Source: a virus. From it: DNA of 30,056 bases. Shown one piece after another: positions 1,114 through 21,015 of the stretch. Every line of letters begins with the position of its first letter. Position 1 is the stretch's first letter. The stretch is from positions 1 to 30,056 of the IMG/VR virus record IMGVR_UViG_3300037090_000306. The stretch is one strand, 5' to 3'. A model generated the notes under the pieces. The model had not been told where the DNA came from. It ran no database searches and worked only from the letters and a program-made list of their open reading frames with translations. Made by a program: the position numbers and the translations under genes.

Positions 1114-3036
1114 TCAATCCGCGTCGATGGACGCGGCTAAAGCTTCGTCGGGGTCGCGCGCGGCGGCGAGGACGGCCAGGTTGTTATCGAGGCGGCGATT
1201 CTGTTCGCGGACCAGCTCGGCATGGCGCCTGAGCAGTGGGCGCTTCATTTCGGCCAGGCGCTGGTTGCGATGGCCGAAGGCGCGTTTCAGGGCTTCCTCG
1301 TCAGAGCGGTCAACGCGGGCGGCGCGGGGGGCGGCGCCAAGGCAGATGCCGCGCGCGTCGGAGACGAAAATCGCGGACGGGTCAAAGGGGTTGACGGTGA
1401 CCTGGAAGGTGTCCTCGGGGAGTTGCTGGCGCGTGCCGTCGGGTGCGGTGATGGCGGACTCGTAAAGCAAGGGTTCGGGAGCGATTTCGGCGTCCTGAAA
1501 CGGAGCGAAATACGCACCTTCGACTTTCAATTCGCGGGCGAAGTCGGGACCCAGCAACTCGGCGACGATGGGCGAGGGGAGAGTGGTGAGGGAGCCGCGA
1601 TCGCGCGCGCGCACCTGGTGCGGGGAAAGTTTGCGGGTGTAGAGGTAGCGGGGATCGGATTGGGCGGCGAGCTTGAGGATTTCCTGGGCGGGGGCCGGCA
1701 GGGCGCGGAATTGCTGGTCGGTGAGTTCGGAGTGGTTGACCTGGTCGGATGGATCGGAGGTGCCGAGGGCCGGGGTGGTGCGGTACCCGGTAACGATGTT
1801 GCCGGCGGCGTGCCAGCCTTCGAGGGTGTGCCAGGTGCGCCGGTTAATGGCGTCGTAAACGGTGATTAATATGGGCAAAAAATGGGCGTGGTAGTCGAGG
1901 AGATTGAGCTGGATCTGGGCGGCGCGGGCGGGATTATCCTGGCCGAGGACGGTGATGATCTTGAGCCACTCGCTGCATTCGCGCAACTGCCCGTGGGTGT
2001 GCTCGGGACGGTGCTCGACATCTTTTCCGGTCTGGGCGGGGATTTGGGCCTGGTTGGCAAGCTCGTTGTGTTTGAGGTTGCGGAGTGATTCGAGCGGGGC
2101 TTTGAACCGGAAGTTGCCACGGCCTTCACCGGACCAGCCGATAATGGCTTGTTCGTGGCCGACGATGCCAGAGCGGCGGACGGTGACGAGACCGCCAGTG
2201 GCGTTGTGGAGGATGGCCGCGACGCGCTCGTTGACGGCGGCGGTGCCGTGCTCCGCGACGATCTCGGTCCCGCGCGGGGAATAGCCTTCGCTCCAGAGGA
2301 CTTTTGCGACCAGCAGGCGGGCGTACTTCTCTTTGAGGTTGTCGAAGGTGCCGTCTTCGCGCTGGAACCGGGGCTTGCAGCCGAAGTTGACGAGGGCGCC
2401 GCTGAACACGTCGAGTAGGTCAAGCTCCAGGACGCGGACGATTTGTTTGCCGAAGACGACGAAATTATCGTGCCACAAGTCATCAATCATGTAGTGGCTG
2501 CCATACCAGAGGTCGGCCCGCGTGGTGAAGATCTTGGGGCCGTGCTCGGAGATGGCGCAGGCGAGGCCGCGACGCATGGCGGCGACTTCAAAGCGGGTGG
2601 GTTTGAAGCGCATGAGGTTGTGGTAGCCATAGCCGGTGGGGATGGATCCGCGGTTGAGATCGGGACTCAGGCCAGGGATGTGCTCGCGAGCGAGATAGCG
2701 GCGGCAGAACTCCCTGTACGCGGCCTTGGCGTTGCGCTGGTACATACTATATAGGTCGCGCCACCATTCGAGGAACTCTTCAGTATGGGTCGGGGTGCGC
2801 TGCGGCAAGCGCGAGCGGTTGATGAGGCCGCGCCAGCCGTGGTGGTGGAGAGCGTCATATTTGCGGCGGGCAGTTTCCGGGCTGGTGCCGAACTGCGCCG
2901 CAATAGCCGCGAGGGATTTGCCGACGCCGGGCGGGGAGATGTCCAGAAGTGCTCGGTGCCAAAGATTGACCTCGGTGCGGACGCCCTCGGGCAGCCCGAG
3001 GTAAAGGTTGATATCGGCGTTGGGTATTAGGTCCAT
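1114..3036 (-). CDS. MuA-like DDE transposase/integrase (640 aa)
   Basis: Catalyses strand cleavage and transfer at the phage ends. The N-terminal part carries a helix-turn-helix (about 43-72, IAAQFGTSPETARRKYDALH). An RNase H-like core follows: first acidic strand YMIDDLWHD (D185/D186), a beta hairpin (VLELDLLDVFSGALVNFG), then VAEHGTAAV with E262 where MuA has Asp in its TIDNTRG motif, then PLESLRN with E316 matching the VERAFG Glu of MuA. The E262-E316 spacing (54) is close to the MuA D336-E392 spacing (56). The C-terminal part shows a beta-barrel-like segment (FQVTVNPFDPSAIFV) and a basic helical tail, as in Mu transposases. The ATG at 3036 has GGAGAA upstream and follows the previous stop by four bases. 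An upstream extension to 3267 overlaps the previous gene and is rejected. Confidence 0.93.
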   Translation of the reverse strand: MDLIPNADINLYLGLPEGVRTEVNLWHRALLDISPPGVGKSLAAIAAQFGTSPETARRKYDALHHHGWRGLINRSRLPQRTPTHTEEFLEWWRDLYSMYQRNAKAAYREFCRRYLAREHIPGLSPDLNRGSIPTGYGYHNLMRFKPTRFEVAAMRRGLACAISEHGPKIFTTRADLWYGSHYMIDDLWHDNFVVFGKQIVRVLELDLLDVFSGALVNFGCKPRFQREDGTFDNLKEKYARLLVAKVLWSEGYSPRGTEIVAEHGTAAVNERVAAILHNATGGLVTVRRSGIVGHEQAIIGWSGEGRGNFRFKAPLESLRNLKHNELANQAQIPAQTGKDVEHRPEHTHGQLRECSEWLKIITVLGQDNPARAAQIQLNLLDYHAHFLPILITVYDAINRRTWHTLEGWHAAGNIVTGYRTTPALGTSDPSDQVNHSELTDQQFRALPAPAQEILKLAAQSDPRYLYTRKLSPHQVRARDRGSLTTLPSPIVAELLGPDFARELKVEGAYFAPFQDAEIAPEPLLYESAITAPDGTRQQLPEDTFQVTVNPFDPSAIFVSDARGICLGAAPRAARVDRSDEEALKRAFGHRNQRLAEMKRPLLRRHAELVREQNRRLDNNLAVLAAARDPDEALAASIDAD

Positions 3037-3040
3037 AGGA

Positions 3041-3739
3041 TCAAAGTGTTCTCCGGAGTTGATCGAGGAAAGTGGCGTCGCGTTTGGCGGCCGGGGTGTT
3101 GAGCCAGGTTCGGCGGATCCGGAGATGCTTTTTGAGGACGGCGGCCTGAGCTTCGATGCGATGTTCGTCGGGGAGGAAGGTGAAGTTTGCGCCGTAAGCT
3201 GCGAGGGACATTTCGAGCTTGTTCCAATCTTTGACAGCCGCCTTTCGGAACGCCGCGGCGGTCTCATCTATGGTGAGGGCGCGGCGGCCACCTTCGCCGC
3301 GGCGGCGGCCGGCGCAGGGATGGGATTCGTCGTCATCGTCGAGTTTACCCTGTTTGAATTCGAGGCAAAGTTGGCGCTGGGTCTTGCCTTCTATTAGCTT
3401 TTCTACGTTTGCAGGAAGTTTACCATCATGGGCAAATAACGGATAATCCCTTATTTTGAACATCCTGGTTTCGATGATTCCGCGCCCAATGGACAGATAG
3501 ACAGTAACGGTGTCATAGTTCAGTTGCGGCAGATTGCGGGAGACCCAGGGACGAAATGCTCCGTGTGGAATGGAGCCATCTTCTTTACCGCGCTGCTTGA
3601 TGTACTGGAGGAAGATGCCGAGAAATACAGCTTTACGGGTGGCATCGAGGAAAAGGGTATGTGTGGCGGCGAACATGGTGCCGAGCTGGACGGCGGCTTC
3701 GGAGTGCCAGGCGGGCGGGAGTTTCGTGAGTCTGTTCAT
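3041..3739 (-). CDS. DUF3102-like protein of the early operon (232 aa)
   Basis: Residues about 35-95 (KAVFLGIFLQYIKQR, then IPHGAFRPWVSRNLPQLNYD, then TVTVYLSIGRGI) resemble the DUF3102 pattern: a helix ending in a Lys/Arg pair, a GxFxxWV segment, then a YD/TV..Y helix. This resembles the small helix-turn-helix proteins that recognise plasmid and phage DNA, so a DNA-binding or replication-accessory role is possible. The middle is acidic (KLDDDDES) followed by an Arg/Gly-rich stretch (AGRRRGEGGRR), which looks like a flexible linker. The C-terminal part is helical (AAYGANFTFLPDEHRIEAQA). The ATG at 3739 shares a base with the preceding stop (TAATG), which fixes the start; the longer 318-residue reading from 3997 is rejected. 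Family assignment is by pattern only. Confidence 0.7.
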   Translation of the reverse strand: MNRLTKLPPAWHSEAAVQLGTMFAATHTLFLDATRKAVFLGIFLQYIKQRGKEDGSIPHGAFRPWVSRNLPQLNYDTVTVYLSIGRGIIETRMFKIRDYPLFAHDGKLPANVEKLIEGKTQRQLCLEFKQGKLDDDDESHPCAGRRRGEGGRRALTIDETAAAFRKAAVKDWNKLEMSLAAYGANFTFLPDEHRIEAQAAVLKKHLRIRRTWLNTPAAKRDATFLDQLRRTL

Positions 3740-4329
3740 TAGATGGAGCCTTCGAGGCGGTGGGTTAGGAACTGGACGAAGTCGGGGCGCGGAATCAGGG
3801 CGTAGCCTTTGGGGCCGCGGCGGTATTTGGTGCCGGGCATTTGCGGGAGAACTTTGCTCGATACGAGGTTGACGCCGTGCTGGCGGCCACAGTTTAACAC
3901 GGCTTTGATTTCCTTGCCGGTCACGTACGGCTTGTCGGTCTTGAAGCCGCGCATCACCAGGGCAACGGCCTGGGCGGGGGTGATAGTCGAAACCCAATCT
4001 TCGCTGCCGCTGTCGCGGTTGAACTCGCTGATGCTGGCGGTGAGGATGCGCAAATCGCGCCGGGCGGCGCCGGGGCTGCGAATGTCGAAGGCGACCACCT
4101 GGCCACCGTCAACCAACAGACCGATCTCATCTTCGCTGCGGCCCAGGAGGTCCTTCGCCGTCTCGATGGCGCAAAGCGGACCCTTGTAACGCGGGTCGGC
4201 GAGGCGAGGGAGGGGGAGTTGCACGGGAGCGATCACGGGACGTGGAGCGTGGAGCGTGGAGCGTGGAGCGTGGAGCGTGAAAGGGAAGGGGCGCGCGCGG
4301 CGGAGAGTTCTATAGGTAGGTCCATCCAA
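3739..4329 (-). CDS. Early-operon protein of unknown function with heptad-repeat insert near N-terminus
   Basis: Function not recognised. The protein is up to 196 residues. Residues about 44-110 contain two conserved-looking strands (IGLLVDGGQVVAFDIRS). The C-terminal 80 residues read as a helix-turn-helix-like module (TPAQAVALVMRGF, VTGKEIKAVLNC, LIPRPDFVQFLTHR), so a DNA-binding role is plausible. The start is uncertain. The ATG at 4329 puts the tandem repeat peptide (TLHAPRSTLHAPR) near the N-terminus; a GTG shortly after the repeat (VIAPVQLPLP) could be the true start, with the repeat then lying in the 5' leader. Neither has a strong ribosome site. The stop overlaps the next start by one base (TAATG). 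Confidence 0.65.
   Translation of the reverse strand: MDGPTYRTLRRARPFPFTLHAPRSTLHAPRPVIAPVQLPLPRLADPRYKGPLCAIETAKDLLGRSEDEIGLLVDGGQVVAFDIRSPGAARRDLRILTASISEFNRDSGSEDWVSTITPAQAVALVMRGFKTDKPYVTGKEIKAVLNCGRQHGVNLVSSKVLPQMPGTKYRRGPKGYALIPRPDFVQFLTHRLEGSI
4241..4282. repeat. Heptamer tandem array, unit CGTGGAG (five exact copies plus one imperfect)
   Basis: Five exact copies of a 7-bp unit at 4241-4275 and a drifted sixth (CGTGAAA). On the coding (minus) strand the unit is pyrimidine-rich and encodes a seven-residue repeat (TLHAPRS). The same unit recurs at 17281-17315 and as a short copy at 16404-16424. Confidence 0.95.
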
Positions 4330-7508: not shown

Positions 7509-7525
7509 AACATGAAACGTGAAGC

Positions 7526-8080
7526 GTGAAGACCAAAGCGAGCAAACTGGATGCCTACGCCGAAAGGTTGCAGGAATGGTTTCTGGCGGGCAAGACGCTG
7601 GCCGAGGCGCAGGAATTGCTGGCGGCGGAGGGATGCGGCGTTTCATTGGGGCGGTTGTCTGTGTGGTGGGCTTCGCGGCAGCGGGCGCGAATGGAGGAGG
7701 GATTGCTCGCCCAGATTGCGAGCGGGGCGCGGGCTTGCAAGATCGTCGAGGCGGAGTACGAGAAGAACCCGGAGCCTCGGCTCAAGACGATTATCGCGCT
7801 GCTCAAGACGCTGATCATGAAGGTCTCGACGCAGCCGGACTGCGATCCCTCGTTGCTCAAGCTGGTGGTGCAGTTGCTTCAGCCGGTGCTGGAATTCTCG
7901 AAGCTGGAAGCCAAGAACCAGGACCTATCGCTGGCGCGGGAGAAATTCGAGTTCAATGCCGCGTCGGCATGCCTGGCGGTGCTGCCCTCGCTGAAGGTGA
8001 TCGCGACCGATACGGGGCTGAGCGAGGTGGAGAAGGTGCAGCAGATACGGCTGAAGCTGTTTGGAGCGGCTCCGGGTTGA
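7526..8080 (+). CDS. Mu gp27-like protein, probable terminase small subunit (184 aa)
   Basis: All-helical protein directly upstream of the large terminase. The N-terminus shows a helix-turn-helix (DAYAERLQEWFLAGKTL, AEAQELLAAEG, VSLGRLSVWWASR). Long helices follow (LKTIIALLKTLIMKVS, LLKLVVQLLQPVLEFSKL, LAREKFEF). This is the pattern of DUF3486/Mu gp27-type proteins that recognise phage DNA for packaging. The GTG at 7526 lies inside a short heptamer array (GAAACGT, GAAGCGT), so the leader is repeat-derived. An overlapping frame open from 7519 into the large terminase is treated as a shadow. Confidence 0.72.
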   Translation: MKTKASKLDAYAERLQEWFLAGKTLAEAQELLAAEGCGVSLGRLSVWWASRQRARMEEGLLAQIASGARACKIVEAEYEKNPEPRLKTIIALLKTLIMKVSTQPDCDPSLLKLVVQLLQPVLEFSKLEAKNQDLSLAREKFEFNAASACLAVLPSLKVIATDTGLSEVEKVQQIRLKLFGAAPG

Positions 8081-8081
8081 C

Positions 8082-8108
8082 CACGGATTACACGGATTTC
8101 ACGGATAC
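8082..8108. repeat. Nine-base tandem repeat between terminase genes (CACGGATTA type, three copies)
   Basis: CACGGATTA, CACGGATTT and CACGGATAC lie head to tail directly before the GTG of the large terminase. If translated in the terminase frame they give a DYTDFTD-like peptide. Confidence 0.9.
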
Positions 8109-8109
8109 A

Positions 8110-9717
8110 GTGAAAAAGAACTCTAAAAAAAGAGCGGGGGCGGTCGCGGGTGAGGCGACGGCCGGCGGCTTATTGGTGATAGTACCAAACGCCCCCGTGG
8201 AATTTGGCGTGCCGGGGCTGATCAAGTTCCGGCGCTACCAGTTGCCAGCGTTCATGGATCGCGAGTCGGGCATCCTGATTCTCCACTGGTCGCGGCAGAT
8301 CGGGAAGAGTTTCACGCTGGCATCGTGGGCGGTGGATCGGCTGCTGTCGCAGTTGCAGCGGTACGATTCCTGGCTGATTACGGTGCTGTCCAACTCGAGG
8401 GACAACGGGGCGGAGTTCAATATCAAGTGCGCGGAGGTATGCAATAAGATGGGGTTGATGATGGTGAGCGAGGACACCTCACCGGACATCACGTACGAAA
8501 ACATGCGCATGGAATGCCGGGTCACCCTGACCGTGGGCGGGCGGACGCGGACGGGGCGCATCAAGGTTCTGGCGGCAAATCCACGGACCGCGCGCGGGTT
8601 CAGCGGGGATTTGATCCTGGATGAATTCGCGTTCCATGAGGACAGCAACGCGATTTGGGAGGCAGCGGAGCCGATTCTGTCGAGCAACCCGGAGTTTCTG
8701 TGCCGCATCGCGAGCACGGGGAACGGGAAGCACAATATGTTTTACCGGATGTCGGCTGGCGACGGGCCGAATGACGGGACGGTGTTTATCTCGGCGCTGG
8801 GCTTCCGGGTGTGCCGCGTGACACGGTCGGAGGCGCACAAGATGGGGGTGAAGGTGTATGACCCGAACACGCGCAAGCCAATTACGCCAGAGCAGGCGCG
8901 GGCTAAGGCATTGGACAAGCGGGCCTATGACCAAAACTACGAGTGCAAGTTCAATGATGAGAACATGGCGCTGCTGACGAATGAGCTGATCCAGCAGGCG
9001 CAGCGTGAGGGGATACCGATCGACGACCAGAAGTGGAGCGCAGTCTCGATGGCGCGAATGTTCCGGGCCCGGGGCGAGCTTTTCCTGGGCGGGGATATTG
9101 GTCGCAACCGGGACATATCAGTTTTCGCGGTGATCGAGCGCGAGGGGCTGAGCCGGAGGATTATCGCGATGCTGCGAATGTCCGGGATGCGTTTGCCGGC
9201 GCAACAAACCCAGCTCGACATGGTGTGCGCGCTGCCGAAATACCGGAAGTGCTGCATTGATATGACGGGCATCGGGCTCGGCCTGGTGGAGTACGCACAG
9301 GAGAAGTGGGGCGACTACCGGGTCCAGGGGATAAACTTTTCCACGACGGAACCGATTAGCGACCGGATCCGGGCCGAGGGGCGCAAGACGGAAACGGCCC
9401 GAGTGACCGAGATCATGGCGACGGACCTGCTGGGAGTGTTCGAGGACCGGACGATCACCATCGAGGTCGAGTTGGACATCGAGGCGGTGGACGATTTGCG
9501 CAAGCCGGAGAAGATGACCTCGCCGGGCGGACGGGTGAGCATCGCGGCGGTGCGGGATGAGGCGGGGCATGCGGATCATTTCTGGGCGTTTGCGCTGGCG
9601 ATCCGGGCGGCGGGAGCGGGAACGGGGCCGGCGCAGTTTTCGCGGCCCAGGAATATCTCGCAGCGGCCAATGTCGGGGATGGGAATGGGAAAGTATTCCG
9701 GGAAGGTGCTGTTGTGA
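8110..9717 (+). CDS. Mu gp28-like large terminase (535 aa)
   Basis: Packaging motor ATPase and headful nuclease. Walker A HWSRQIGKS is at 59-67 (K66), Walker B DLILDEF at 167-173 (D171, E172), and a coupling motif STGNGKH at 202-208. The C-terminal RNase H-like nuclease has three acidic positions: D329 (LGGDIGRNRD), D384 (CCIDMTGIG) and D489 (GHADHFWA). Length and motif order match Mu-like terminases. The start is set at GTG 8110 (MKKNSKK), just after the 9-bp repeat. The frame is open far upstream, but there it runs through the small-subunit gene. No good Shine-Dalgarno sequence is visible, so the exact start is uncertain by tens of codons. Confidence 0.93.
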   Translation: MKKNSKKRAGAVAGEATAGGLLVIVPNAPVEFGVPGLIKFRRYQLPAFMDRESGILILHWSRQIGKSFTLASWAVDRLLSQLQRYDSWLITVLSNSRDNGAEFNIKCAEVCNKMGLMMVSEDTSPDITYENMRMECRVTLTVGGRTRTGRIKVLAANPRTARGFSGDLILDEFAFHEDSNAIWEAAEPILSSNPEFLCRIASTGNGKHNMFYRMSAGDGPNDGTVFISALGFRVCRVTRSEAHKMGVKVYDPNTRKPITPEQARAKALDKRAYDQNYECKFNDENMALLTNELIQQAQREGIPIDDQKWSAVSMARMFRARGELFLGGDIGRNRDISVFAVIEREGLSRRIIAMLRMSGMRLPAQQTQLDMVCALPKYRKCCIDMTGIGLGLVEYAQEKWGDYRVQGINFSTTEPISDRIRAEGRKTETARVTEIMATDLLGVFEDRTITIEVELDIEAVDDLRKPEKMTSPGGRVSIAAVRDEAGHADHFWAFALAIRAAGAGTGPAQFSRPRNISQRPMSGMGMGKYSGKVLL

Positions 9718-9718
9718 G

Positions 9719-9776
9719 GTCCGAAGTCCGAAGTCCGAAGTCCGAAAGAAGGCCGAAGGCCGAAATCCGAAGGCCG
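9719..9776. repeat. Heptamer tandem array, unit GAAGTCC and drifted forms
   Basis: About eight units follow the terminase stop: GAAGTCC repeated, then GAAAGAA, GGCCGAA and AATCCGA-type variants. The later units differ but keep the 7-bp phase. The array lies immediately upstream of the 90-bp dispersed element. Confidence 0.93.
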
Positions 9777-9787
9777 ATGGAGGCGCT

Positions 9788-9877
9788 AGGACGCGTTGGG
9801 GGGCGTTTGGGGTGCAATCCATGCCGGGAGGGGTTCCGACGCAGCACATCGAGCGTTAAACGGGTATTAACAAGTGT
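9788..9877. repeat. 90-bp dispersed intergenic element, copy A
   Basis: Aligns without gaps to 16100-16189, about 80 percent identical by eye. The best-conserved parts are AGGACGCGTTGGGG, TTGGGGTGCAATCCATGCC and TAACARGTGT. Both copies contain an inverted repeat GTTAA-N7-TTAAC (here 9855-9859 and 9867-9871). Both copies have a heptamer array before and heptamer units after. It lies in the gap before the portal gene. A regulatory site or a short mobile/repeat element are the main options. Confidence 0.85.
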
Positions 9878-9887
9878 TGAGAAGACA

Positions 9888-9922
9888 GTCCAAAGTCCAA
9901 TGTCCCGCGTCCAAAGTCTTCT
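9888..9922. repeat. Heptamer array following the dispersed element (GTCCAAA type)
   Basis: Five in-phase 7-bp units: GTCCAAA, GTCCAAT, GTCCCGC, GTCCAAA, GTCTTCT. The longest reading of the portal gene would translate this array as its N-terminus; I place the portal start after it. Confidence 0.85.
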
Positions 9923-9960
9923 GGGTGCGGGATGGCGGAATTTCAACCTTTGGGAGGCCT

Positions 9961-11796
9961 GTGAACCTTAACGGCACCAGCCAATTCAACCAGGCGCGGA
10001 TCGAATGGGCGATTCGGCTGAAATATTCGCCGATGCCGGAGCTGGACATGGAGATGCTGGCCTCGCAGCTCAATGCGTTCCGGATCGGCGAGATGCGCGT
10101 CGTGGGCAAGACGTGGGAAGTAATGATGGAGCGGGACGGGGAACTGGCCGTCAATGCCGACAAACGGGCGGCGGACCTGGCCGGCATGAGCTGGAAAGTG
10201 GTCAGCGATGGCAGTCCGGACGGGGATAAGCACGCGGCGGCGCTGCAATACTTCTACGACCACCTGAAAGTGACTGAGGCGCTGGATCAGGACGTTTGCG
10301 GGAATGCCGACCATTTGATTTACCAGATGGCGTCGGCGCACTCTTACCGCTACAGCGTGCACGAGATGCTGATGCGGGTGGATAATCCGGCGGCCATGGA
10401 AGTGACGGCGGAGTTCCGGCATACGCCGGTTTGGTTTTTCGAGTCGCGTCGGGGTTACCTCGGCTATTTGCAGCACATTTTCGACATGTACGGGGTGCCC
10501 TGCGTGTCGGGGGAATGGCTGACCTGCGTGGGGCTGGGCTGGATGCGGCCGCTTTCGATGGCCTTTGCGATGAAACATTTCGCGCTGCGGGATTGGCTGC
10601 TGTTCTGCACGCGCTATGGCAGCGGGTTCCTCGAGGGAATCACGGACGCGCAAAAGGACTCGCCGGAATGGGGCCAGGCCGTGGAAGCGCTCGAGGCCAT
10701 CGCGAATGACGGCGTGGTGCTCCATAACCGCGGGGTGGATTTCAAGTTCCTCGACCAGGCGGCCAAGAATGCGCTGCCTTTCCAGCCGATTATCGAGATG
10801 ATCAACGGGCTGTACGCGAAGTGTTACCGGGGAGTGGATCTGGCGACGGGCTCGCGGTCAAGCGCCAGCCAGCCGGGGCAATCGTCTAAGAGCCCGGTCG
10901 GGGCGAGCGTGCAGAAGGAAGAGAGCGGGATCTACCTGGTGCGGGACTGCAAGTGGCTGACGGGGTATGCGAATGACCGGATTGATGTGCCGGTGATCCG
11001 CTACCTGTTCAACCAGCAGCCGCGGGCCTGGTTCGCGCTCATGCCGCCGCTCGAAGACATGACGAGCGACGACCTGGCCAGCGCGCAAGCCCTGGTGCCG
11101 ATGGGTCTGAGGCTCGCTCTGAGCGAAGTCTATGGCCGTTTCCGCTGGCGCCAGCCCGAGGCGGGCGAGCCGGTGCTGATCCCGGCCCAGGCGCCCGCCA
11201 TGCCCGGCGAAGACCCGGAGGCGAAACCCGCCGGCCCGAATGGCAAGCAGCCCAATGCCGGACAGCAGAAACCGAAGCCGAATCCGCCGCCCGCGCCCGC
11301 CAACGGCGGCAAGGTCAAAGGCGCCAAAGGCCCGCCCGCCGCGGCGGACCGCAAGACGCAGCCGGCTTTGGAGGAAGCTCCCATCGCCGCGGGCGCTGAT
11401 CCGGATAAGAATCCCGAAAGCCAAACGGCCAGCACGGCCATGCCGGATACGCAGGTGGATGCCGGCGGCTTCTGGAGCCGGGCCGGCCTGCTGCCGAAAG
11501 GTGCGGACGGCCAGACGCTGCCGATGCCATCGCTCGGCTACGCCCTCCCGCAAGACAAGACGCAGCCGGAAGTAAAGGTATTTGCGGCCGCGGTCGCACA
11601 CGACATCGAGCCGATGCTGGCGCGGCTGGCGAAGGTCAGCGGGATCAAAGACGACGGGATTTTCAAGACGAAGCTGCACGATCTGATGCGCGACTGGGAT
11701 GCGCTGGCTAATGACATCCAGGCGGATCCCCGCTCGCTACGGGTGCTCGAACAGATCCTGCAACAGGGGGTTTTACGGGGAGTGACAAAAACATGA
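9961..11796 (+). CDS. Mu gp29-like portal protein, DUF935 type (611 aa)
   Basis: Forms the portal ring at the capsid vertex. The N-terminal domain reads like DUF935 portals (LDMEMLASQLNAFRIGEM, then MMERDGELAVNADKRAADL, then LAGMSWKVV). The middle has the expected WFFESRRGYLGYL, SGEWLTCVGLGWMRPLSM and LFCTRYGSGFLEGI segments and VLHNRGVDFKFL. A Pro/Ala/Lys-rich linker (about 400-470) leads to a helical C-terminal clip-like part. The GTG at 9961 is chosen because GGGAGG precedes it by three bases and the sequence becomes family-like there. A GTG at 9925 or an ATG upstream would add repeat-encoded residues. The stop overlaps the protease start (ATGA). Confidence 0.88.
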   Translation: MNLNGTSQFNQARIEWAIRLKYSPMPELDMEMLASQLNAFRIGEMRVVGKTWEVMMERDGELAVNADKRAADLAGMSWKVVSDGSPDGDKHAAALQYFYDHLKVTEALDQDVCGNADHLIYQMASAHSYRYSVHEMLMRVDNPAAMEVTAEFRHTPVWFFESRRGYLGYLQHIFDMYGVPCVSGEWLTCVGLGWMRPLSMAFAMKHFALRDWLLFCTRYGSGFLEGITDAQKDSPEWGQAVEALEAIANDGVVLHNRGVDFKFLDQAAKNALPFQPIIEMINGLYAKCYRGVDLATGSRSSASQPGQSSKSPVGASVQKEESGIYLVRDCKWLTGYANDRIDVPVIRYLFNQQPRAWFALMPPLEDMTSDDLASAQALVPMGLRLALSEVYGRFRWRQPEAGEPVLIPAQAPAMPGEDPEAKPAGPNGKQPNAGQQKPKPNPPPAPANGGKVKGAKGPPAAADRKTQPALEEAPIAAGADPDKNPESQTASTAMPDTQVDAGGFWSRAGLLPKGADGQTLPMPSLGYALPQDKTQPEVKVFAAAVAHDIEPMLARLAKVSGIKDDGIFKTKLHDLMRDWDALANDIQADPRSLRVLEQILQQGVLRGVTKT

Positions 11797-12734
11797 AATC
11801 AACAAATCCTGACATCGTCCTGCAACTAGCCCTGGGGAACGGGGAAATCGACGCGGATGGCTGGGCGCTGATCGCGCCGTTTGGCGAGCATCCGAAGACG
11901 CGGGTTTACCGCGAGGACGGGCAGATTAAGGAGCAGCAGTTTATCCAGGTGCTGGATAACGAATCGGCGGACGCGCTGCTGGCCAAGGAGAATTCATTTT
12001 TCCGCAAGCTGCGCCGGGCGCTGGTGGGGATTCCCACGTTCAAGGGGCACGGCGACCTGAATGATGCCGATCCGGCGGCGGTATCGAACGAGGCGCAAAA
12101 GATCAAGATTGGCGTCGTGGACCAGGTGCGCAAGGGCGAGCGTGGCATCGAGGCGCACTTTGCCCTGGATAACGAGGGGGCGGAGGCAGTCGAGGCGGGT
12201 TTCAAGTATCCCAGCGCATTCTGGTGGGTCTTACCCATCGCCAATGGCCAATCAGATGGCAAGGCGATCCGCTGCCGGCCCTTCAAGCTGATTTCGGTGG
12301 CGTTGACGCCTTATCCAAACATTTCGGGGGTTGAGAGCCTTGCCAATGCAGCCCCCGAGGAACAATCAGGGCAAGAAAAACAATCAAACGACAAGGAAAA
12401 CATGTTACGCGAACAGATCATTGGGTGCCTGATTGCCAAGGGCGTGCCCATTCAGAACGAAATGACGGATGGGCAGCTGCTGGCCGTGCTGGCGAACGAG
12501 TTTCACGGGAATCAATCCACGGGCGCCGAAGTGCATGGCTCGCATAACGAAGCGAGCCGCAGTGCGCACACGGCATCGGCGGATGCGAACAGCAAGGGTG
12601 GCCATGAAGCGGCTGCGAAGGCGCATTTGAAGGCCGCCGCGGCGCAGGACAAGGCTGGGAACGGCGAGACGGCGGAGATGCACCGGAAGATGGCGCAGTA
12701 TCACGCGAGCCGGGCGGGCCGATTCGGCAAGTAA
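11793..12734 (+). CDS. Mu gpI-like prohead protease fused to scaffold (313 aa)
   Basis: Prohead maturation protease. Residues 1-180 match the Mu I-type protease pattern: an opening beta domain (DADGWALIAPFGEHP), IPTFKGHGDLND with H86, a strand pair (GIEAHFALDNEGAEAV), YPSAFWWV with S141, and the family-typical closing FKLISVALTPYPNISG. H86 and S141 are the catalytic candidates. After a Gln/Glu/Lys linker, residues 204-313 form an Ala/His-rich helical scaffold-like domain (HEAAAKAHLKAAAAQ, MHRKMAQYHASRAG). The start overlaps the portal stop. As in Mu I/Z, the C-terminal part may also be made separately (see next entry). Confidence 0.85.
   Translation: MKSTNPDIVLQLALGNGEIDADGWALIAPFGEHPKTRVYREDGQIKEQQFIQVLDNESADALLAKENSFFRKLRRALVGIPTFKGHGDLNDADPAAVSNEAQKIKIGVVDQVRKGERGIEAHFALDNEGAEAVEAGFKYPSAFWWVLPIANGQSDGKAIRCRPFKLISVALTPYPNISGVESLANAAPEEQSGQEKQSNDKENMLREQIIGCLIAKGVPIQNEMTDGQLLAVLANEFHGNQSTGAEVHGSHNEASRSAHTASADANSKGGHEAAAKAHLKAAAAQDKAGNGETAEMHRKMAQYHASRAGRFGK
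12402..12734 (+). CDS. Possible internal-start scaffold protein within the protease gene (110 aa)
   Basis: An in-frame ATG (codon 204 of the protease gene) is preceded by AAGGAAAAC, a fair ribosome site. It would yield a scaffold of 110 residues (begins MLREQIIGCLIAKGVP). Mu makes its scaffold Z from an internal start in gene I, and the arrangement here is the same. The evidence is the start context plus precedent, not an expression signal. Confidence 0.5.
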   Translation: MLREQIIGCLIAKGVPIQNEMTDGQLLAVLANEFHGNQSTGAEVHGSHNEASRSAHTASADANSKGGHEAAAKAHLKAAAAQDKAGNGETAEMHRKMAQYHASRAGRFGK

Positions 12735-12792
12735 TGATTTTGGCGGCGTCTGAGCGCAGCCAGAGAACACAAACAACAACGAAAGATAAAGC

Positions 12793-13404
12793 ATGAAGAA
12801 TATAATGATTGGATGGCTGGCGGGCCGGGGTGTCACCCTGAGTCCTGACAGCAGCGACCAGGTCGTCATGAGCGCGGTGCAAACCGCGGCCACGGCGGCG
12901 CAGGGTCAAATCAGCGCGCTCGGCAACGAAAAGAGCGAGCTGGGCGGGCGCATCACGGCGCTGGAAAACGAGCGCAACACGGAGAAGAGCCGGGCGGACC
13001 AGGCGACGACGGCGCTGGCAAACGAGCAATCGGCGCGCAAGGCCGAGCGCAAGGGCCGGGCCGAGGCGACGACGGACCTGGCGATTCATCGCGGGATCCT
13101 GACCATGGCGGAGCGCGAGGGGCAAGTGACGGCGCTGGAGAATTCGGCGGACTTCGATAAGGACGCCGAGGCGTTGCTCGCCAAACAGCCGGCCACCAAG
13201 ACGACCAGCAACAATACGTCGGTAAGTGGCAAGCAGTCGGCTGCCCTCAGCAATGAGGAGCAGGAGACGCGGGCGCAGTACGACACGGCGTTCAAGGCCG
13301 AACTCATCGCCAACGGGCAGGACCCGGTGCGGGCGCATGCGGCGGTCATGAAGAAGCCGGAATACAAGGGGCTGGCGCAGAAGCTGACGCCGAAGAAAGG
13401 TTAA
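12793..13404 (+). CDS. Coiled-coil scaffold-like head assembly protein (203 aa)
   Basis: A short N-terminal domain (IMIGWLAGRGVTLSPDS) precedes a long heptad-type coiled coil (about 40-95, LGNEKSELGGRITALENER, LANEQSARKAERKGRAEA). The C-terminal part, DLAIHRGILTMAEREG to LENSADFDKDAEALLAK, resembles the tail of Mu-type protease/scaffold proteins (xIxxGRITxAERxxW). It is therefore likely a second, separate scaffold or a duplicated scaffold domain. The C-terminus is basic (LTPKKG), as is common for scaffold parts that bind coat protein. The leader before the ATG is A-rich without a strong ribosome site. Confidence 0.65.
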   Translation: MKNIMIGWLAGRGVTLSPDSSDQVVMSAVQTAATAAQGQISALGNEKSELGGRITALENERNTEKSRADQATTALANEQSARKAERKGRAEATTDLAIHRGILTMAEREGQVTALENSADFDKDAEALLAKQPATKTTSNNTSVSGKQSAALSNEEQETRAQYDTAFKAELIANGQDPVRAHAAVMKKPEYKGLAQKLTPKKG

Positions 13405-13423
13405 AGGCTAAAGGCTAAAGTCG
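13403..13423. repeat. Short heptamer array (AAAGGCT, AAAGGCT, AAAGTCG)
   Basis: Three in-phase units beginning on the stop codon of the scaffold-like gene, upstream of the gene at 13440. Confidence 0.8.
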
Positions 13424-13439
13424 AACAGGAATCAAAAAT

Positions 13440-13748
13440 ATGGGTGAGAAACAAACACAGACGCCGGCGGCGGACCTGGCGCCCGAGAATGCGGGGGTTC
13501 AAGCGCTCGGAAACAGCCGCCGCGTGGCACGGACGCCGCCGGTGGACATGGCACACGAGAACATGGGGCTGAAGGCGCGGGTGGCCGTGCTGGAGGCGGA
13601 GAAGACGCAACGGACCGCGGATGAGGGATTGATCTCGGCCAAGATGGCGCGGGGGCTTTCGCGGGGGCAGGCAGTCGCGGTGATCACACGGCAGCGGGAG
13701 TACGACACGGCTAAGAAGGCGGCGGAGGCTAAAACCAAAACGAAGTAA
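13440..13748 (+). CDS. Small hypothetical head-region protein (102 aa)
   Basis: Function not recognised. The first half is polar and low in structure. The second half has a helix (LKARVAVLEAEKTQR) and a segment ISAKMARGLSRGQAVAVITRQREYD, which I recognise as a pattern frequent in small phage head-region proteins (xKMxxGLxRxQAxxVIxRQxxxD). It may act in head assembly or as a minor head component. The basic Lys-rich C-terminus is typical of DNA- or coat-contacting tails. A heptamer array lies on each side. Confidence 0.6.
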   Translation: MGEKQTQTPAADLAPENAGVQALGNSRRVARTPPVDMAHENMGLKARVAVLEAEKTQRTADEGLISAKMARGLSRGQAVAVITRQREYDTAKKAAEAKTKTK

Positions 13749-13761
13749 CAGCAGACAAAAG

Positions 13762-13789
13762 CAGAAAACAGAAAGCAGAAAACAGAAAG
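13762..13789. repeat. Heptamer array, alternating CAGAAAA / CAGAAAG (four units)
   Basis: Four units in strict alternation, so the higher-order period is 14 bp. The array is upstream of the gene at 13803 and supplies its purine-rich leader. Confidence 0.9.
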
Positions 13790-13802
13790 CAAGAATCGAA
13801 AC

Positions 13803-14348
13803 ATGAAGAGAATCAAACAATTAATGGTGGCCGTGCTTGGCACGCTGGCCGCGACCTGGGATCGCCTGACGAAGCCGGCGGGGTTCGCCCTGCCGAATGA
13901 ATTGGCCCTGATGAACGAACATGGGGTCGAGACGCTGATCATCAACGCTGGCACAGCGCCGGTGTCCAGCCGCTACCTGCTCTATAAGCGCGGGTCGGGC
14001 GGGGCGAATTTCTGCGACATCTGCACGGCGAGCGATCTGCCGATGGGCATTTCGAGCGATTCACCTTACCAGGACGCGGATCTGGTGAACGTGCGTCGCC
14101 TCGGGCTCCGGAAAGGGTTCGAGATCGGGATGGCCGCAACAGCCATCACGATCGATCACTTGGTGACACCGGCGGCAGCGGGCAAGGTCCAGGACCTGTC
14201 GCTCATTTCCGCGGGCGCGAATTACTACGTGATTGGCCGGTGCAATAAAACCGTCGCCGCCCTGGCGGAGGTCTCCTTCGTCCCGTGCACGCCTTACCTG
14301 GTGACCGTGGCGTCGCTGGGAAGCTGGTCGCTCGCCAATCCGGCATAA
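13803..14348 (+). CDS. Probable capsid decoration protein, DUF2190-like (181 aa)
   Basis: Directly before the major capsid gene, the usual place of a head decoration/stabilising protein. The core shows the DUF2190-type pattern: SSRYLLYKRGSGGANFCDI, a Gly-rich strand pair (LPMGISSDSPYQD), then GMAATAITIDHLVTPAAAGK and YYVIGRCNKTVAALAEVSF. This is the repeated beta-tulip style of decoration proteins. An extra N-terminal stretch (MKRIKQLMVAVLGTLAAT) is hydrophobic and basic and looks like a weak signal sequence, which is odd for a capsid protein. Cys residues (FCDICT) could form disulfides or chelate metal. Confidence 0.65.
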   Translation: MKRIKQLMVAVLGTLAATWDRLTKPAGFALPNELALMNEHGVETLIINAGTAPVSSRYLLYKRGSGGANFCDICTASDLPMGISSDSPYQDADLVNVRRLGLRKGFEIGMAATAITIDHLVTPAAAGKVQDLSLISAGANYYVIGRCNKTVAALAEVSFVPCTPYLVTVASLGSWSLANPA

Positions 14349-14353
14349 CCCCC

Positions 14354-14388
14354 GAAGTCTAAAGTCTAAAGTCTGAAGTCTAAAGTCG
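14354..14388. repeat. Heptamer array, unit AAAGTCT / GAAGTCT (five units)
   Basis: Five in-phase units between the decoration and major capsid genes; the last is AAAGTCG. The AAGTC core is shared with the arrays at 9719 and 13403. Confidence 0.93.
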
Positions 14389-14403
14389 AAGAAAGAAAAG
14401 AAC

Positions 14404-15441
14404 ATGAATAGAATTGACATACCCCTGGCACTGGCGAACACGCGCGCGGGCCTGGCGTTTATGCAGAGCGGCGTGGTGCTGAGCAACGACTGGGCGGGAA
14501 TGCCGAGTGGCACGATCTGTCTGCCCAATGATTCGTTGCTGCGGCAGACGGAAAACATCGAAGAGCTGACGGCTTTTGCCGCGAGCTACGATTCAATGGT
14601 CGGCAACGGGCTGGCGCGGTTGCGGGATTTCCTGGCACCGCCGAGGCCGAGCAGCAGCCGGATTTTCCGGTTGACGACCTATAACGAAAACGAGCCGTGG
14701 GAAACGGTGGATTACAACCGGATTAAACGCGGCATCCTGGCGGATTTTGCCGAAGTGCGGCAGCGCACGGCGGCCAAGAGCGACCTGCAAGCGCCGAATC
14801 GCGGGTTGTCCGTGATTCTGGACCGGGATGAGCTGAAGGACAAGCCGGAGTGGCAGCAGACGCACACGAAATGGCTGATTGACCTGCTCAACCGGGCGAC
14901 CGTGCTCGAAGCGGTGGATACCTTCACGGCGGCGGCGACGGCGGACGCGGTCACCTGGGATGCGGCAAGCAACCCAGACCTGGACATCAGGACGCGGGTC
15001 ATCACGCTGGCGAACACGACGGGCTTCTACCCGCAGAACGTGGCCTATGGCGACGCGGCTCATCTGGCGCGGCAGACAGCCTACGAGAACCAGCTCACGG
15101 CTGGGTCACTGGCGCGGGCGGGGCAGTTCACCGAAGCGGAGATCGCCACAGCGCTCGGCATTTCCAATGTGCTCATCAATGCGGAGCGCTATCAGAGCAG
15201 CTCGACGGCGAAGTCGGAAATCCTGGGTAAGAACGTCCTCATCTTCACGGGGATCAAGGACGCCGGCCCGATGGATCCGAGCAACATCGTGCGGCATGTC
15301 GTCGGCGGCCAATACGGCAGCGGCGAATACGCGGTCTATGTCACCGACCTGGGCGTCAAGAAGATCGCCATCACCGTGGAGAATTACGAATACCTCCACA
15401 CGCAGCACACGACGGGGATCATGAAGCTGGCCATCAACTAG
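14404..15441 (+). CDS. Major capsid protein (345 aa)
   Basis: Builds the icosahedral shell. Size, position after the protease/decoration genes and sequence pattern match Mu-like siphophage major head proteins of HK97 fold. Features: an N-terminal arm (IPLALANTRAGLAFMQSG), an E-loop region (about 75-105, RIFRLTTYNENEPWETVDYN), a spine-like helix after RGILADFAEVRQRTAAKSDL, P-domain strands (LSVILDRDELKD), an A-domain (DIRTRVITLANTTGFYPQNV, ALGISNVLINAERYQSS) and a terminal strand (YAVYVTDLGVKKIAITVENYEY). The start ATG follows the purine-rich heptamer leader. The protein has a single Cys (SGTICLPND). Confidence 0.85.
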   Translation: MNRIDIPLALANTRAGLAFMQSGVVLSNDWAGMPSGTICLPNDSLLRQTENIEELTAFAASYDSMVGNGLARLRDFLAPPRPSSSRIFRLTTYNENEPWETVDYNRIKRGILADFAEVRQRTAAKSDLQAPNRGLSVILDRDELKDKPEWQQTHTKWLIDLLNRATVLEAVDTFTAAATADAVTWDAASNPDLDIRTRVITLANTTGFYPQNVAYGDAAHLARQTAYENQLTAGSLARAGQFTEAEIATALGISNVLINAERYQSSSTAKSEILGKNVLIFTGIKDAGPMDPSNIVRHVVGGQYGSGEYAVYVTDLGVKKIAITVENYEYLHTQHTTGIMKLAIN

Positions 15442-15449
15442 CTGTAATC

Positions 15450-15477
15450 AAAGCAGAAAGCAGAAAGCAGAAAGCAA
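15450..15477. repeat. Heptamer array, unit AAAGCAG (four units)
   Basis: Three exact AAAGCAG and one AAAGCAA, ending a few bases before the ATG at 15482. The same unit recurs at 20172 and 20993. Confidence 0.95.
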
Positions 15478-15481
15478 AGAC

Positions 15482-16000
15482 ATGAATACGATCAAGAAAA
15501 TCAAGGCGCGGGTGCTGGTGGGGTTGGCCGTGCTGGTGGCGATGGCGCTGCCGGCAATGGGCCAGACGCTCAGTCCGCGTATTTCCACGCTGGCATTGGC
15601 GCTGAGCTGCACGAACGGCTCGACGCTGACGATCGGCACCTCGACTAACATAGTGCAGGGATTCGCGGCGACGCACCGGATGCAGTTATGCGCGGTCATC
15701 GCGCCGTTGGGAACGACGGCGCTGACGAAGGCGAACTTCTGCACCAACCTGGTGATGACGTTCCAATACCTGGTGGGAACGAACGTGACGACCGATACGC
15801 CGTTCACGTGGACCATCGACAATAACCAGCTCGCGGGCGGGGCACTGGCGGCCGGGAACACGAACGCCATCACGGTGCGGACAAATCTGCCCGTCGAGGC
15901 TTGTGACAGCCTCTCGGGGATAAAGTTGGGCACGGCGCTGGGATCGAGCACAAACGCGGCTGGATTCTCGCTGACCGTGCTGACGGCGCAAACGCCATAG
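15482..16000 (+). CDS. Secreted-looking beta-rich protein in the head gene cluster (172 aa)
   Basis: Function not recognised. It begins with a textbook Sec signal peptide: basic MNTIKKIKAR, hydrophobic VLVGLAVLVAMALP, and a cleavage-like AMGQ at about residue 28. The mature part is Asn/Thr/Ala-rich and beta-like (STLALALSCTNGSTLTIGTS, LVMTFQYLVGTN, TPFTWTIDNNQL), like virion decoration or host surface proteins. It has four Cys in the mature part. It lies between the major capsid and connector genes and is followed by a strong hairpin. Possible roles are a head fibre, a head decoration protein or an exported non-virion factor. Confidence 0.6.
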   Translation: MNTIKKIKARVLVGLAVLVAMALPAMGQTLSPRISTLALALSCTNGSTLTIGTSTNIVQGFAATHRMQLCAVIAPLGTTALTKANFCTNLVMTFQYLVGTNVTTDTPFTWTIDNNQLAGGALAAGNTNAITVRTNLPVEACDSLSGIKLGTALGSSTNAAGFSLTVLTAQTP

Positions 16001-16016
16001 CCTTTAGTGCACAGAG

Positions 16017-16049
16017 CCCGGCCGCCGTCTGTAGGGGGCGGCGGCCGGG
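16017..16049 (+). terminator. Strong GC hairpin, attenuator-like, after the secreted-looking gene
   Basis: CCCGGCCGCCG (16017-16027) pairs perfectly with CGGCGGCCGGG (16039-16049), giving an 11-bp stem with an 11-base loop. No U-run follows (CTCCTCTCACG), so it is not a standard intrinsic terminator. It may be a pause, attenuation or mRNA-stability element that lowers transcription after the abundant capsid genes. Confidence 0.6.
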
Positions 16050-16060
16050 ACTCCTCTCAC

Positions 16061-16095
16061 GAATGATGAAGGATGAATGATGAAGGATGAAATGG
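16061..16095. repeat. Heptamer array, alternating GAATGAT / GAAGGAT (about five units)
   Basis: GAATGAT, GAAGGAT, GAATGAT, GAAGGAT, then a drifted GAAATGG. The 14-bp alternation is like that of the array at 13762. It leads straight into copy B of the 90-bp element. Confidence 0.9.
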
Positions 16096-16099
16096 GCGC

Positions 16100-16189
16100 A
16101 GGACGCGTTGGGGGACGGTTGGGGTGCAATCCATGCCCGGAGGGCGTGCGACGCCACCAGCGAAGCGTTAACAGGCTATTAACAGGTGT
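16100..16189. repeat. 90-bp dispersed intergenic element, copy B
   Basis: Gapless counterpart of 9788-9877. The GTTAA-N7-TTAAC inverted repeat is at 16167-16171 and 16179-16183. It is followed by GAGTCTAAAGTT, short heptamer-like units, and then the ATG at 16210. With the array and hairpin before it, the gap 16001-16209 is almost completely accounted for. Confidence 0.85.
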
Positions 16190-16209
16190 TTGGTACAGAG
16201 TCTAAAGTT

Positions 16210-16407
16210 ATGCCGCGTGAATTGTTGCCCCTTAGAAAAAACCGGGAGACGCACACGAAAGCGGAGTTGTTTCCACGGACGGAGGCGCGAGTGGTGGCCG
16301 GATACGGTGGGAGGGCGTGGGACCGGCGGATCGTGAAGTGGGAGCTGCGGGAGATGGCGGCGGACGGGATCGGTAGGGAAGAGGGGAAAGCGCTAAGCAC
16401 GGAGTGA
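16210..16407 (+). CDS. Small basic hypothetical protein (65 aa)
   Basis: Function not recognised. A short, highly charged protein (MPRELLPLRKNRETHTK to the Arg-rich VAGYGGRAWDRRIVKWE), probably helical at the C-terminal end (WELREMAADGIGREEGK). No membrane segment and no Cys. The ATG at 16210 is preferred over 16186 because the earlier start lies in the repeat element. It lies before the gp36-like connector gene. Codon use is like the neighbours, but small size keeps confidence moderate. Confidence 0.45.
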   Translation: MPRELLPLRKNRETHTKAELFPRTEARVVAGYGGRAWDRRIVKWELREMAADGIGREEGKALSTE

Positions 16408-16427: not shown

Positions 16428-16865
16428 ATGAGCTGGATCACCGTAACAGACGAAGAGGCCATGCCGGTGGCATCGCCGGAGCGGCAGTCAATCGCCGGCA
16501 TCAAACGGGCCGATGACCTCTCGGATAAAGTCGCGGAGGCGACCGAAACATTCCGCGACGCGATACGGTCCAGCGGCCAGCCTCTGGACGTTGACGGGAC
16601 GGTACCGCTCTCGCTGAAGAGGTATGTGATTGCCTGGGCCATATGGGCCTTTGTCTCGCAGGGCATGCCGAAAGTGCCATCGATTCAAACCGAGGCGCGA
16701 AAGTCGGAAAATGACAAGGCCGAAAAGATGCTGGAGCGAGTTATTGACGGCAAATTGAAGGTCAGCGCTCCGGACCCGAACCAGACAATCAGTCACGGGG
16801 TCAGCCTCGTGCGGCGCGGGCGGCGCGTGAGGACCGATAGCTTCGACAAGCTGGGTGCGACGTGA
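16428..16865 (+). CDS. Mu gp36-like head-tail connector, DUF1320 type (145 aa)
   Basis: Small helical connector of the gp36/DUF1320 type. It opens with a short strand and acidic loop (SWITVTDEEAMPVASPER), then helices (LSDKVAEATETFRDAIRSS, LKRYVIAWAIWAFVSQGM, DKAEKMLERVIDGKLKV) and a basic C-terminal tail (SLVRRGRRVRTD). This is the expected run: DD/DE loop, long helix, a second helix with aromatic residues, basic end. It precedes the head morphogenesis gene. The ATG at 16428 follows a purine-rich heptamer leader. Its stop lies inside the possible 5' extension of the next gene. Confidence 0.68.
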   Translation: MSWITVTDEEAMPVASPERQSIAGIKRADDLSDKVAEATETFRDAIRSSGQPLDVDGTVPLSLKRYVIAWAIWAFVSQGMPKVPSIQTEARKSENDKAEKMLERVIDGKLKVSAPDPNQTISHGVSLVRRGRRVRTDSFDKLGAT

Positions 16866-16866
16866 C

Positions 16867-17976
16867 GTGAAAGGCGCGGAACCCAATTACCTGGGGAAGT
16901 TGCTGGCGGATATGAAATCCGAGGTCGCCGGCCTGTCGGCTGATCCGGTGCGGGCGCGGGCGCGGATCCGGCAGTTGCTGGACCAGCTGGGTCACTGGGC
17001 TCTGGTGAACTCGAACGACGATAGCGAGGATTCATGTCCGGCAGGAACTATTGAGCGGCTATTCGGCGAGGAAGAGCCAGCCGCCGATCGCAGCGAGCCG
17101 GATTCCAAACGGAAACCGGCAGAGTTGGCTGAGTGGCGCCGCCACATGCGGTCGCGCGTGCCCGCTGTGAGGCGCTATCTAGCTGCCATCCATGAAGCGC
17201 TGTTGCCAGCGCGATTGGAGATGCAGGCCAAGATCCTCAGCAAATCCGCCTTGGCGAACGAACCGGCTCCGTGCTCATTCGCTCCACGCTCCACGCTCCA
17301 CGCTCCACGCTCCACACCCCTGGCGAACAGCGAAGGCTCCGGCGCGGCGATGGATTTCATGTTCGACCTGCGCAAGTTCAAGCTCAACTTCGAGAGCGTA
17401 ATGCGAGTGGCCGGGTTGGATGCTTTCCAGGCGGCCGGGGCGCAGGCTCTCGTCGAGATGGGCAAGGACGATCCGTTCAAGGCGACGCCAGCGGCGGTGC
17501 AGCGATTTCTTGCGGATCGGGAGAATAAGATGGCGGATACGCCGCAGGACATCTTTGACCAGGTGAAAAGCGGGCTGGCTGAGGGGTTCGATAAGGGCGA
17601 GACGATGTCTGAGCTGGCGGGGCGGGTAAAGGCAGCGTTTGGCGACATCGAAAAGGGCCGCGCCATGACCATCGCCATGACCGAGACGAGCGCGGCATAC
17701 GGGCAGGGGCGCAACGATGCTCAGAAGCAAGCCGGGGCCAAATGGAAGCGATGGATGACCTCCGGCAACGCGAATGTGCGGGCGGCGCACCGCATGGTCA
17801 ACGGCGAGGTTATTCCGTTTGACGACTCGTTCACGATGGTTGACGAGCGGACGGGGGAATCGGATGAAATCCGGTTCCCGGGCGACCCCGATGGCGAGCC
17901 GTGGAATGTCATCAACTGTCATTGTAAGTGCGGGGTGGTGCTCAAGGGGCCGCCGGAGGAAGACGCCGTCGAATGA
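16867..17976 (+). CDS. Mu gp30/SPP1 gp7-like head morphogenesis protein with repeat insert (about 369 aa)
   Basis: Minor head protein needed for capsid assembly. The C-terminal 170 residues carry the family signature: KGRAMTIAMTETSAAYGQGR, KRWMTSGNANVRAAHRMVNG, EVIPFDDSF, IRFPGDPDGEPWNVINC and HCKCG, with Cys/His positions as in the family (NCHCKCG). The N-terminal half is helical and divergent. About residue 135-150 a GCTCCAC x5 array (17281-17315) is translated in frame (APRSTLHAPRSTP), an insertion between N-terminal and central domains. The start is ambiguous: GTG 16867 (one base after the previous stop) or GTG 16855 (overlapping it). The stop overlaps the next ATG. Confidence 0.85.
   Translation: MKGAEPNYLGKLLADMKSEVAGLSADPVRARARIRQLLDQLGHWALVNSNDDSEDSCPAGTIERLFGEEEPAADRSEPDSKRKPAELAEWRRHMRSRVPAVRRYLAAIHEALLPARLEMQAKILSKSALANEPAPCSFAPRSTLHAPRSTPLANSEGSGAAMDFMFDLRKFKLNFESVMRVAGLDAFQAAGAQALVEMGKDDPFKATPAAVQRFLADRENKMADTPQDIFDQVKSGLAEGFDKGETMSELAGRVKAAFGDIEKGRAMTIAMTETSAAYGQGRNDAQKQAGAKWKRWMTSGNANVRAAHRMVNGEVIPFDDSFTMVDERTGESDEIRFPGDPDGEPWNVINCHCKCGVVLKGPPEEDAVE
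17281..17315. repeat. In-frame heptamer array, unit GCTCCAC x5, inside head morphogenesis gene
   Basis: Five exact 7-bp copies (35 bp) inside a coding region. The unit is the reverse complement of GTGGAGC seen at 4241. In both coding insertions the coding sense is the pyrimidine-rich strand and gives LHAPRST-like peptides; in gene junctions the purine-rich strand is the sense strand. Confidence 0.95.
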
Positions 17977-20171: not shown

Positions 20172-20199
20172 AAAGCAGAAAGCAGAAAGCAGAAAGCAA
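20172..20199. repeat. Heptamer array, unit AAAGCAG (four units)
   Basis: Same unit and same unit count as 15450-15477, ending four bases before the ATG at 20204. Near-identical leader for two distant genes. Confidence 0.95.
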
Positions 20200-20203
20200 A
20201 AAT

Positions 20204-20992: not shown

Positions 20993-21013
20993 AAAGCAGA
21001 AAGCAGAAAGCAG
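20993..21013. repeat. Heptamer array, unit AAAGCAG (three units)
   Basis: Three exact units, beginning right after the stop codon and running into AAATG of the next gene, so the array is the entire intergenic leader. Confidence 0.95.
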
Positions 21014-21015
21014 AA

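Follow-up and report, generated by a model that had tools for sequence, protein, structure and literature searches.

The window, that is, the whole 30,056-base IMG/VR virus record analysed here, comes from a transposable phage of the Mu/B3 type and carries two copies, A and B, of an element that we propose to be a strong gyrase site (SGS). Copy A lies at the terminase–portal junction and copy B ahead of the connector/gpF module. A likeness of the two over 90 bp had been described by eye in an earlier note on this DNA, and the ungapped alignment of 9788–9877 (A) with 16100–16189 (B) bears it out, with 72 of 90 positions identical (80%) and a blastn E value of 1e-20 (434-kb sequence set), far beyond chance. 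The 19-mer TTGGGGTGCAATCCATGCC is common to both copies. GTTAA-N7-TTAAC closes each of them, as the note had also recorded, with TTAA at 9856 and 9867 in A and at 16168 and 16179 in B, and TTAA-N7-TTAA followed by GTGTT forms the end of both.

9788..9883, + strand: element copy A, proposed strong gyrase site at the terminase–portal junction (72/90 identity to B; match to a profile built without the window)
9856..9879, + strand: right arm of A, TTAA-N7-TTAA at 11-bp spacing, then GTGTT (sequence; alignment with Mu and D108)
16100..16195, + strand: element copy B, a second proposed strong gyrase site, upstream of the connector/gpF module (likeness to A; match to the window-free profile)
16168..16191, + strand: right arm of B, TTAA-N7-TTAA at 11-bp spacing, then GTGTT (sequence)

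Seven elements were combined into a profile without Mu and before Mu was inspected. Its best match in the Mu genome is 17881–17940 on the late-gene strand (14.1 bits, E 0.0011), adjoining the gyrase cut annotated in the Mu record at 17879/17880. The next Mu match reached 7.1 bits, and the maximum in 200 dinucleotide-shuffled genomes was 10.8 bits. The Mu site remained the top match with 7/7 leave-one-out profiles and with the window-free profile (E 0.00024 to 0.074); the window-free profile ranked A first (E 0.00087) and B second (E 0.0095) in the window. The reversed profile found neither the Mu nor the D108 site. Among ten named genomes the top match was mid-genome in four, namely Mu, D108 (E 0.0015), and, as weak matches, Alteromonadaceae phage B23 at 50% (E 0.28) and D3112 at 52% on the reversed strand (E 0.27). 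A profile of the G-rich core gave no top match in the mid-genome gap of any named phage, and weak second or lower matches near the middle in some. The profile columns that match Mu 17879/17880 place the predicted cuts as follows; the predicted cut of A is 36 bp ahead of the first TTAA, as in Mu.

9816..9824, + strand: predicted gyrase cut of A, near 9819/9820, within about 3 bases either way
16128..16136, + strand: predicted gyrase cut of B, near 16131/16132, within about 3 bases either way (from profile columns)

The closing GTTAA-N7-TTAAC had been read as an operator-like symmetry. This part did not hold: the motif is not a dyad operator here, and among relatives it varies as an 11-bp direct repeat that matches the Mu gyrase site in its right arm. 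Phage Mu (L159) also has three TTAA boxes with 11-bp spacing where its genes A and B meet, at 3316–3337 (TTAA-N7-TTAA at 3316 and 3327).

In many relatives the terminase stop and portal start overlap directly, and a subset has 100 to 500 bases between the two genes; copy A is inside such an insert. L021, L022, L023, L026, L028, A, and B align almost gap-free. The inserts share a plan, with a G-rich core (best form TGCCCCAGGACGATTT-N-GGGGGTATC) and, about 50 bases on, two to three A/T patches one helical turn apart. These patches, mostly TTAA, lie about 36 bp beyond the predicted cut in the inserts of relatives, and their letters vary by phage (TTTAAACGGCT twice in L022, TTGCAACGGGC twice in L049, TTTAATGG in L128). 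A strict pattern drawn from three elements, TTAANNGGNTATTAACNNGTGTT, matched only records of the window phage and of the phage of L023. TTAA-N7-TTAA density, counted in 94 of 95 loci, was 0.130/kb in the first 500 bp after the terminase, 0.089/kb at the Mu position, and 0.019/kb elsewhere. The element or insert is at about 44–54% in five contigs of 36–42 kb (L020, L021, L042, L125, and L128).

Position was also compared in 39 relatives with overlapping terminase and portal. Eight had their top match 2.2–3.4 kb downstream on the + strand (1.53 expected, P 1.1e-4), counting L055, which is weak (3.5 bits), and L088 and L107, which as near relatives amount to less than two events; none had a top match there on the − strand. 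The Mu SGS is 3.3 kb downstream of the terminase, and the motifs in these relatives stand at about 2.3–3.3 kb. Typical motifs at the Mu position are TTTTTAAACGGGGTTTAAACGCGG in L095 and GTTAAAGGGTATTTAAAGGGG in L078. The comparison proposed by the earlier note, whether relatives lack the element at these junctions, thus gave a mixed outcome: many have overlapping genes there, and several of those carry the motif at the Mu position.

Helical phasing of A/T was analysed by periodogram in 19 inserts, picked by eye from gapped junctions plus L013 (gap hidden by a junction open reading frame (ORF)), against same-length stretches of the same locus. This gave a Fisher P of 1e-10 at 10.5 bp and no A/T periodicity at 5–6 or 14–17 bp. 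L026 (same as L027) was left out of the set, as were L037, L038, L054, L068, L087, L090, L094, L096, and L105 (short gap or another gene inside). In 61 control gaps from 15 of those loci no phasing was observed (P 0.93). The mid-genome gaps of eight named phages showed phasing at 10 bp (P 1.5e-6), D108 being excluded as a near copy of Mu, and Mu-position gaps in 25 relatives gave P 2.6e-4, compared with 0.18 in 151 control gaps.

The earlier note had called the conserved core non-coding. Both copies are in open frames tightly coupled to their neighbours, so the statement does not hold in that form, but the conservation itself is at the nucleotide level.

9714..9971, + strand: mini-ORF A, 85 codons, GTG start at 9714 overlapping the terminase stop, TAA end overlapping the portal start, encoding the heptamer array (ORF survey)
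16092..16205, + strand: mini-ORF B, 37 codons, ATG at 16092 to TAA, ending 4 bases before the ATG at 16210 (sequence)

A small ORF bridges terminase and portal in 19/19 inserts examined. Its start is on the terminase stop (NTGA) in 16/19, and its stop has a 4-base overlap with a possible portal start in 15/19, a count in which the portal start was partly picked by that overlap. Such coupled starts and stops, together with a right-arm repeat that keeps one reading phase in eight elements, would suit a small protein gene; the conserved DNA would then simply be the gene of a short basic peptide, located between those for terminase and portal and duplicated in the window phage. The core, however, is read in three frames across phages, as APGRF (L021), PQERFGG (L011; also PQDV), and CPRTVSGG (L118), and no single conserved reading frame was found among relatives. 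The junction peptides are unlike one another, the ORF in A encodes heptamer repeats, and TTA, which accounts for 23 of 473 leucine codons in the main genes of the window (about 5%), recurs at the right-arm repeat as a conserved leucine. These results indicate that the constraint is on the nucleic acid. A–B differences are also not concentrated at third positions, and we regard the small protein gene as quite improbable. A purely coding reading had been appealing from the ATGA overlaps at both ends and was set aside when the core turned out to be read in three frames.

Three functions had been offered for the element by the earlier note: a late-gene control site, a small structured RNA, or a short repeat. 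As to the first, the element is indeed real, cis-acting at the nucleotide level, and retained by relatives at a structural-gene junction, but the promoter scan gave no support. In the fuller form of this explanation, a regulator of the phage or the host, binding tandem sites in the manner of PhoB/OmpR or acting like Mu C, would start the portal and connector operons from the 11-bp direct repeats. Direct repeats of 11 bp are typical of such regulators, both copies stand ahead of structural gene blocks in the same direction, and a very stable hairpin, perhaps a terminator, is just ahead of B (16005–16060, z −5.05). A scan with the sigma-70-type −35/−10 consensus, on the other hand, found no excess of sites (4 over 14.5 kb, with shuffles giving 3.8), and the junction ORFs are coupled at both ends and therefore point to readthrough translation across the site. 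Nor would a promoter account for the match to the Mu cut site or for the motif having shifted to the Mu position elsewhere among the relatives, and we consider it unlikely. A cyanobacterial-type Pho box or OmpR-like operator was likewise considered for the 11-bp repeats and set aside after the Mu match.

A structured RNA found no support in the window, with fold z-scores of −0.45 (A) and −0.17 (B) and no Rfam match. Among the relatives, L121 (−3.08), L130 (−2.45), and L118 (−2.55) folded better than shuffles, and six others did not. L121 (94–136) and L130 (5949–5991) carry a core variant about 1.8 kb upstream of the terminase; in it a pair of inverted repeats is interleaved in the pseudoknot-like order a b a' b', and these repeats seem to covary between L121 and L130. 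By eye, this looks like a different, pseudoknot-like relative of the element. For a dispersed host or short repeat, no dispersal was seen in the sequence sets searched. In viral_contigs, TTGGGGTGCAATCCATGCC was confined to a pair of near-identical records, both from the same phage, and genome_contigs gave five exact 18-mer matches, which lack flank similarity and are chance-like. Among 392 Planctomycetota genomes, the core 16-mer was present in one.

A packaging (cos or pac) signal for the terminase would explain why the element adjoins the terminase gene in most phages of the group, and the direct repeats and GC dyad are reminiscent of cosB/cosN. The presence of two copies at a distance of 6.3 kb, contigs that continue through the site, and a similar core in L118 beside an unrelated terminase (phrog_675) speak against it, and of the explanations weighed here it is the least credible.

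From the homology between A and B, the conservation at the nucleotide level, the match to the Mu SGS, the positional equivalence, and the helical phasing in the family, we conclude that the A/B element probably serves a transposable phage as its SGS, which in this genome exists in duplicate, with a translation-coupled mini-ORF running across it. Cleavage by host DNA gyrase would fall within the conserved centre, near 9820 (A) and 16132 (B), and the enzyme would wrap the downstream TTAA arm with its A/T patches one helical turn apart. Supercoiling from the central gyrase site of Mu helps the prophage ends meet for replicative transposition, and by analogy the element may serve the same role here. 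The site would be between terminase and portal in the group of the window, and after the portal/F/G genes in other transposable phages. The small ORF coupled to both neighbours would carry ribosomes across the site. For Mu, the SGS is described in the excerpt of PMC10052514 as central, with central placement important, the right arm essential, and the left arm dispensable.

Several observations weigh against the gyrase-site interpretation. Two copies are present, 6.3 kb apart, compared with one in Mu. A and B alone showed no significant phasing at 10.5 bp (P 0.155 for A and 0.34 for B), and a two-sequence profile of A and B only did not find the Mu SGS. The seven-element profile missed the middle of the B3, Lsp-JY19, Rhodovulum P1, Aussie, Pasteurella AFS-2018a, and Microcystis phages. 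A near-identical G-rich core is present in L113, L117, and L122, where neither a transposase nor a terminase of the window type was seen, and a pure gyrase reading does not explain this. As to placement, a sister record, 99.6–100% identical to the window, extends 9186 bases further left; on the resulting 39.2 kb, from which the right end of the phage is missing, A stands at about 48% and B at about 65%. The sequence stops at the right within an open coiled-coil-like ORF, so the midpoint of the whole phage must be further to the right, perhaps between A and B or at B itself.

The cores of L113 (2–43), L117 (7350–7394), and L122 (5363–5407) have a 45-base form, ATTTCGCTCTAGGATGCCCCAGGACGATTT-N-GGGGGTATCCACACC, almost identical to the core of L118 and L125. 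It sits ahead of a small gene in contigs of up to 54 kb.

The gene set of the window is that of a transposable phage, with a B3-type terminase, portal, protease, gpF-like protein, and probable transposase.

7519..9717, + strand: terminase large subunit of the Mu gp28/B3 type (phrog_2, E 1e-26; B3 and other transposable phages by tblastn)
9961..11796, + strand: portal, with the GTG start at 9961 set by comparison with relatives (phrog_113, E 2.9e-23; relatives)
16855..17976, + strand: gpF-like head morphogenesis protein, downstream of B (phrog_2468, E 3.9e-33)
1114..3267, − strand: probable DDE transposase (phrog_310, E 3.6e-10, partial match)

The transposase is the weak point of the assignment. 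The rve domain had no match in the sister record, Mu-transpos_C gave only a weak match in 2 of 18 relatives (a set excluding the phage of the window itself), and the Pfam searches with PF09299 and rve were almost empty.

Heptamer arrays stand ahead of both copies, at 9719–9777 (A) and 16061–16091 (B). The order array, core, heptamer units, gene start, given for both copies in the earlier note, applies fully to A, which is followed by a short AGTCCAA array, but only partly to B, which is followed by about one unit. Differing arrays occur at many gene junctions (the two above and 13396–13420, 13747–13791, 14355–14387, 15450–15476, 20172–20202, and 20993–21016), with units that include GTCCGAA, AAAGGCT, AAGTCTA, AAAGCAG, and GAAGGAT, and they are unrelated to the A/B element. 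A CGTGGAG array at 4241–4279 has its complement 13 kb away at 17280–17315, giving inverted arms of 30–41 bases. The GC hairpin directly ahead of B follows the gene at 15482–16000 and is possibly a terminator without a T run; hairpins are also found after the capsid gene in L011, L013, and L016. At 26061–26513, a tandem repeat of 69 and 135 bases is inside a large ORF near the tail genes.

A wider proposal, which we hold at about even confidence, is that a central gyrase site recognisable from its sequence (TTTAA patches at 11-bp intervals past the cut) is common to transposable phages, from Mu to those of uncultured soil communities, and that it can move between two gene junctions and be duplicated. 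Where the site splits the terminase–portal operon, a mini-ORF with an unconserved peptide would evolve solely to carry ribosomes across. The element is a handle on whether all Mu-like jumping phages carry a central gyrase site. As a profile from uncultured phages finds the Mu site, and candidate sites at the expected place in other phages, this question can now be approached both from sequence and with simple gyrase cleavage assays. The element also hints at a reason for the stable length and order of transposable-phage genomes, and at the way in which a translated operon can accommodate a DNA site. Our searches, which did not reach the older key papers on the Mu SGS, returned no literature joining 'strong gyrase site' with terminase and portal, and none pairing Verrucomicrobia with 'transposable phage'. 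The conservation of such gyrase sites is called unclear in the excerpt of a Leptospira paper (PMC8705779).

Among known systems, the predicted SGS of Pseudomonas aeruginosa phage Ab30, by the description in the excerpt of PMC5977238, is likewise a proposed site in a transposable phage, an intergenic stretch close to the exact midpoint of that genome; the Ab30 site was proposed from an insertion-free gap and not from sequence. With the E. coli genomic gyrase motif, given in the excerpt of PMC6379681 as 130 bp with 10.75-bp GC periodicity in both arms, the family of the element shares a centre and arms with helical alternation of A/T and GC. That motif is degenerate, whereas a sequence-level consensus recurs in the family of the window. 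The Mu SGS differs in being between G and I rather than between terminase and portal, and the two copies, the coupled mini-ORF across the site, and the G-rich core (absent from Mu) set the window phage, in which gyrase action is predicted, apart from Mu. The closest likeness is nevertheless to the SGS of Mu and D108, transposable phages in which the profile match starts beside the Mu cut on the late-gene strand, and the right arm carries TTTAA patches about 11 bp apart, the first about 36 bp past the cut.

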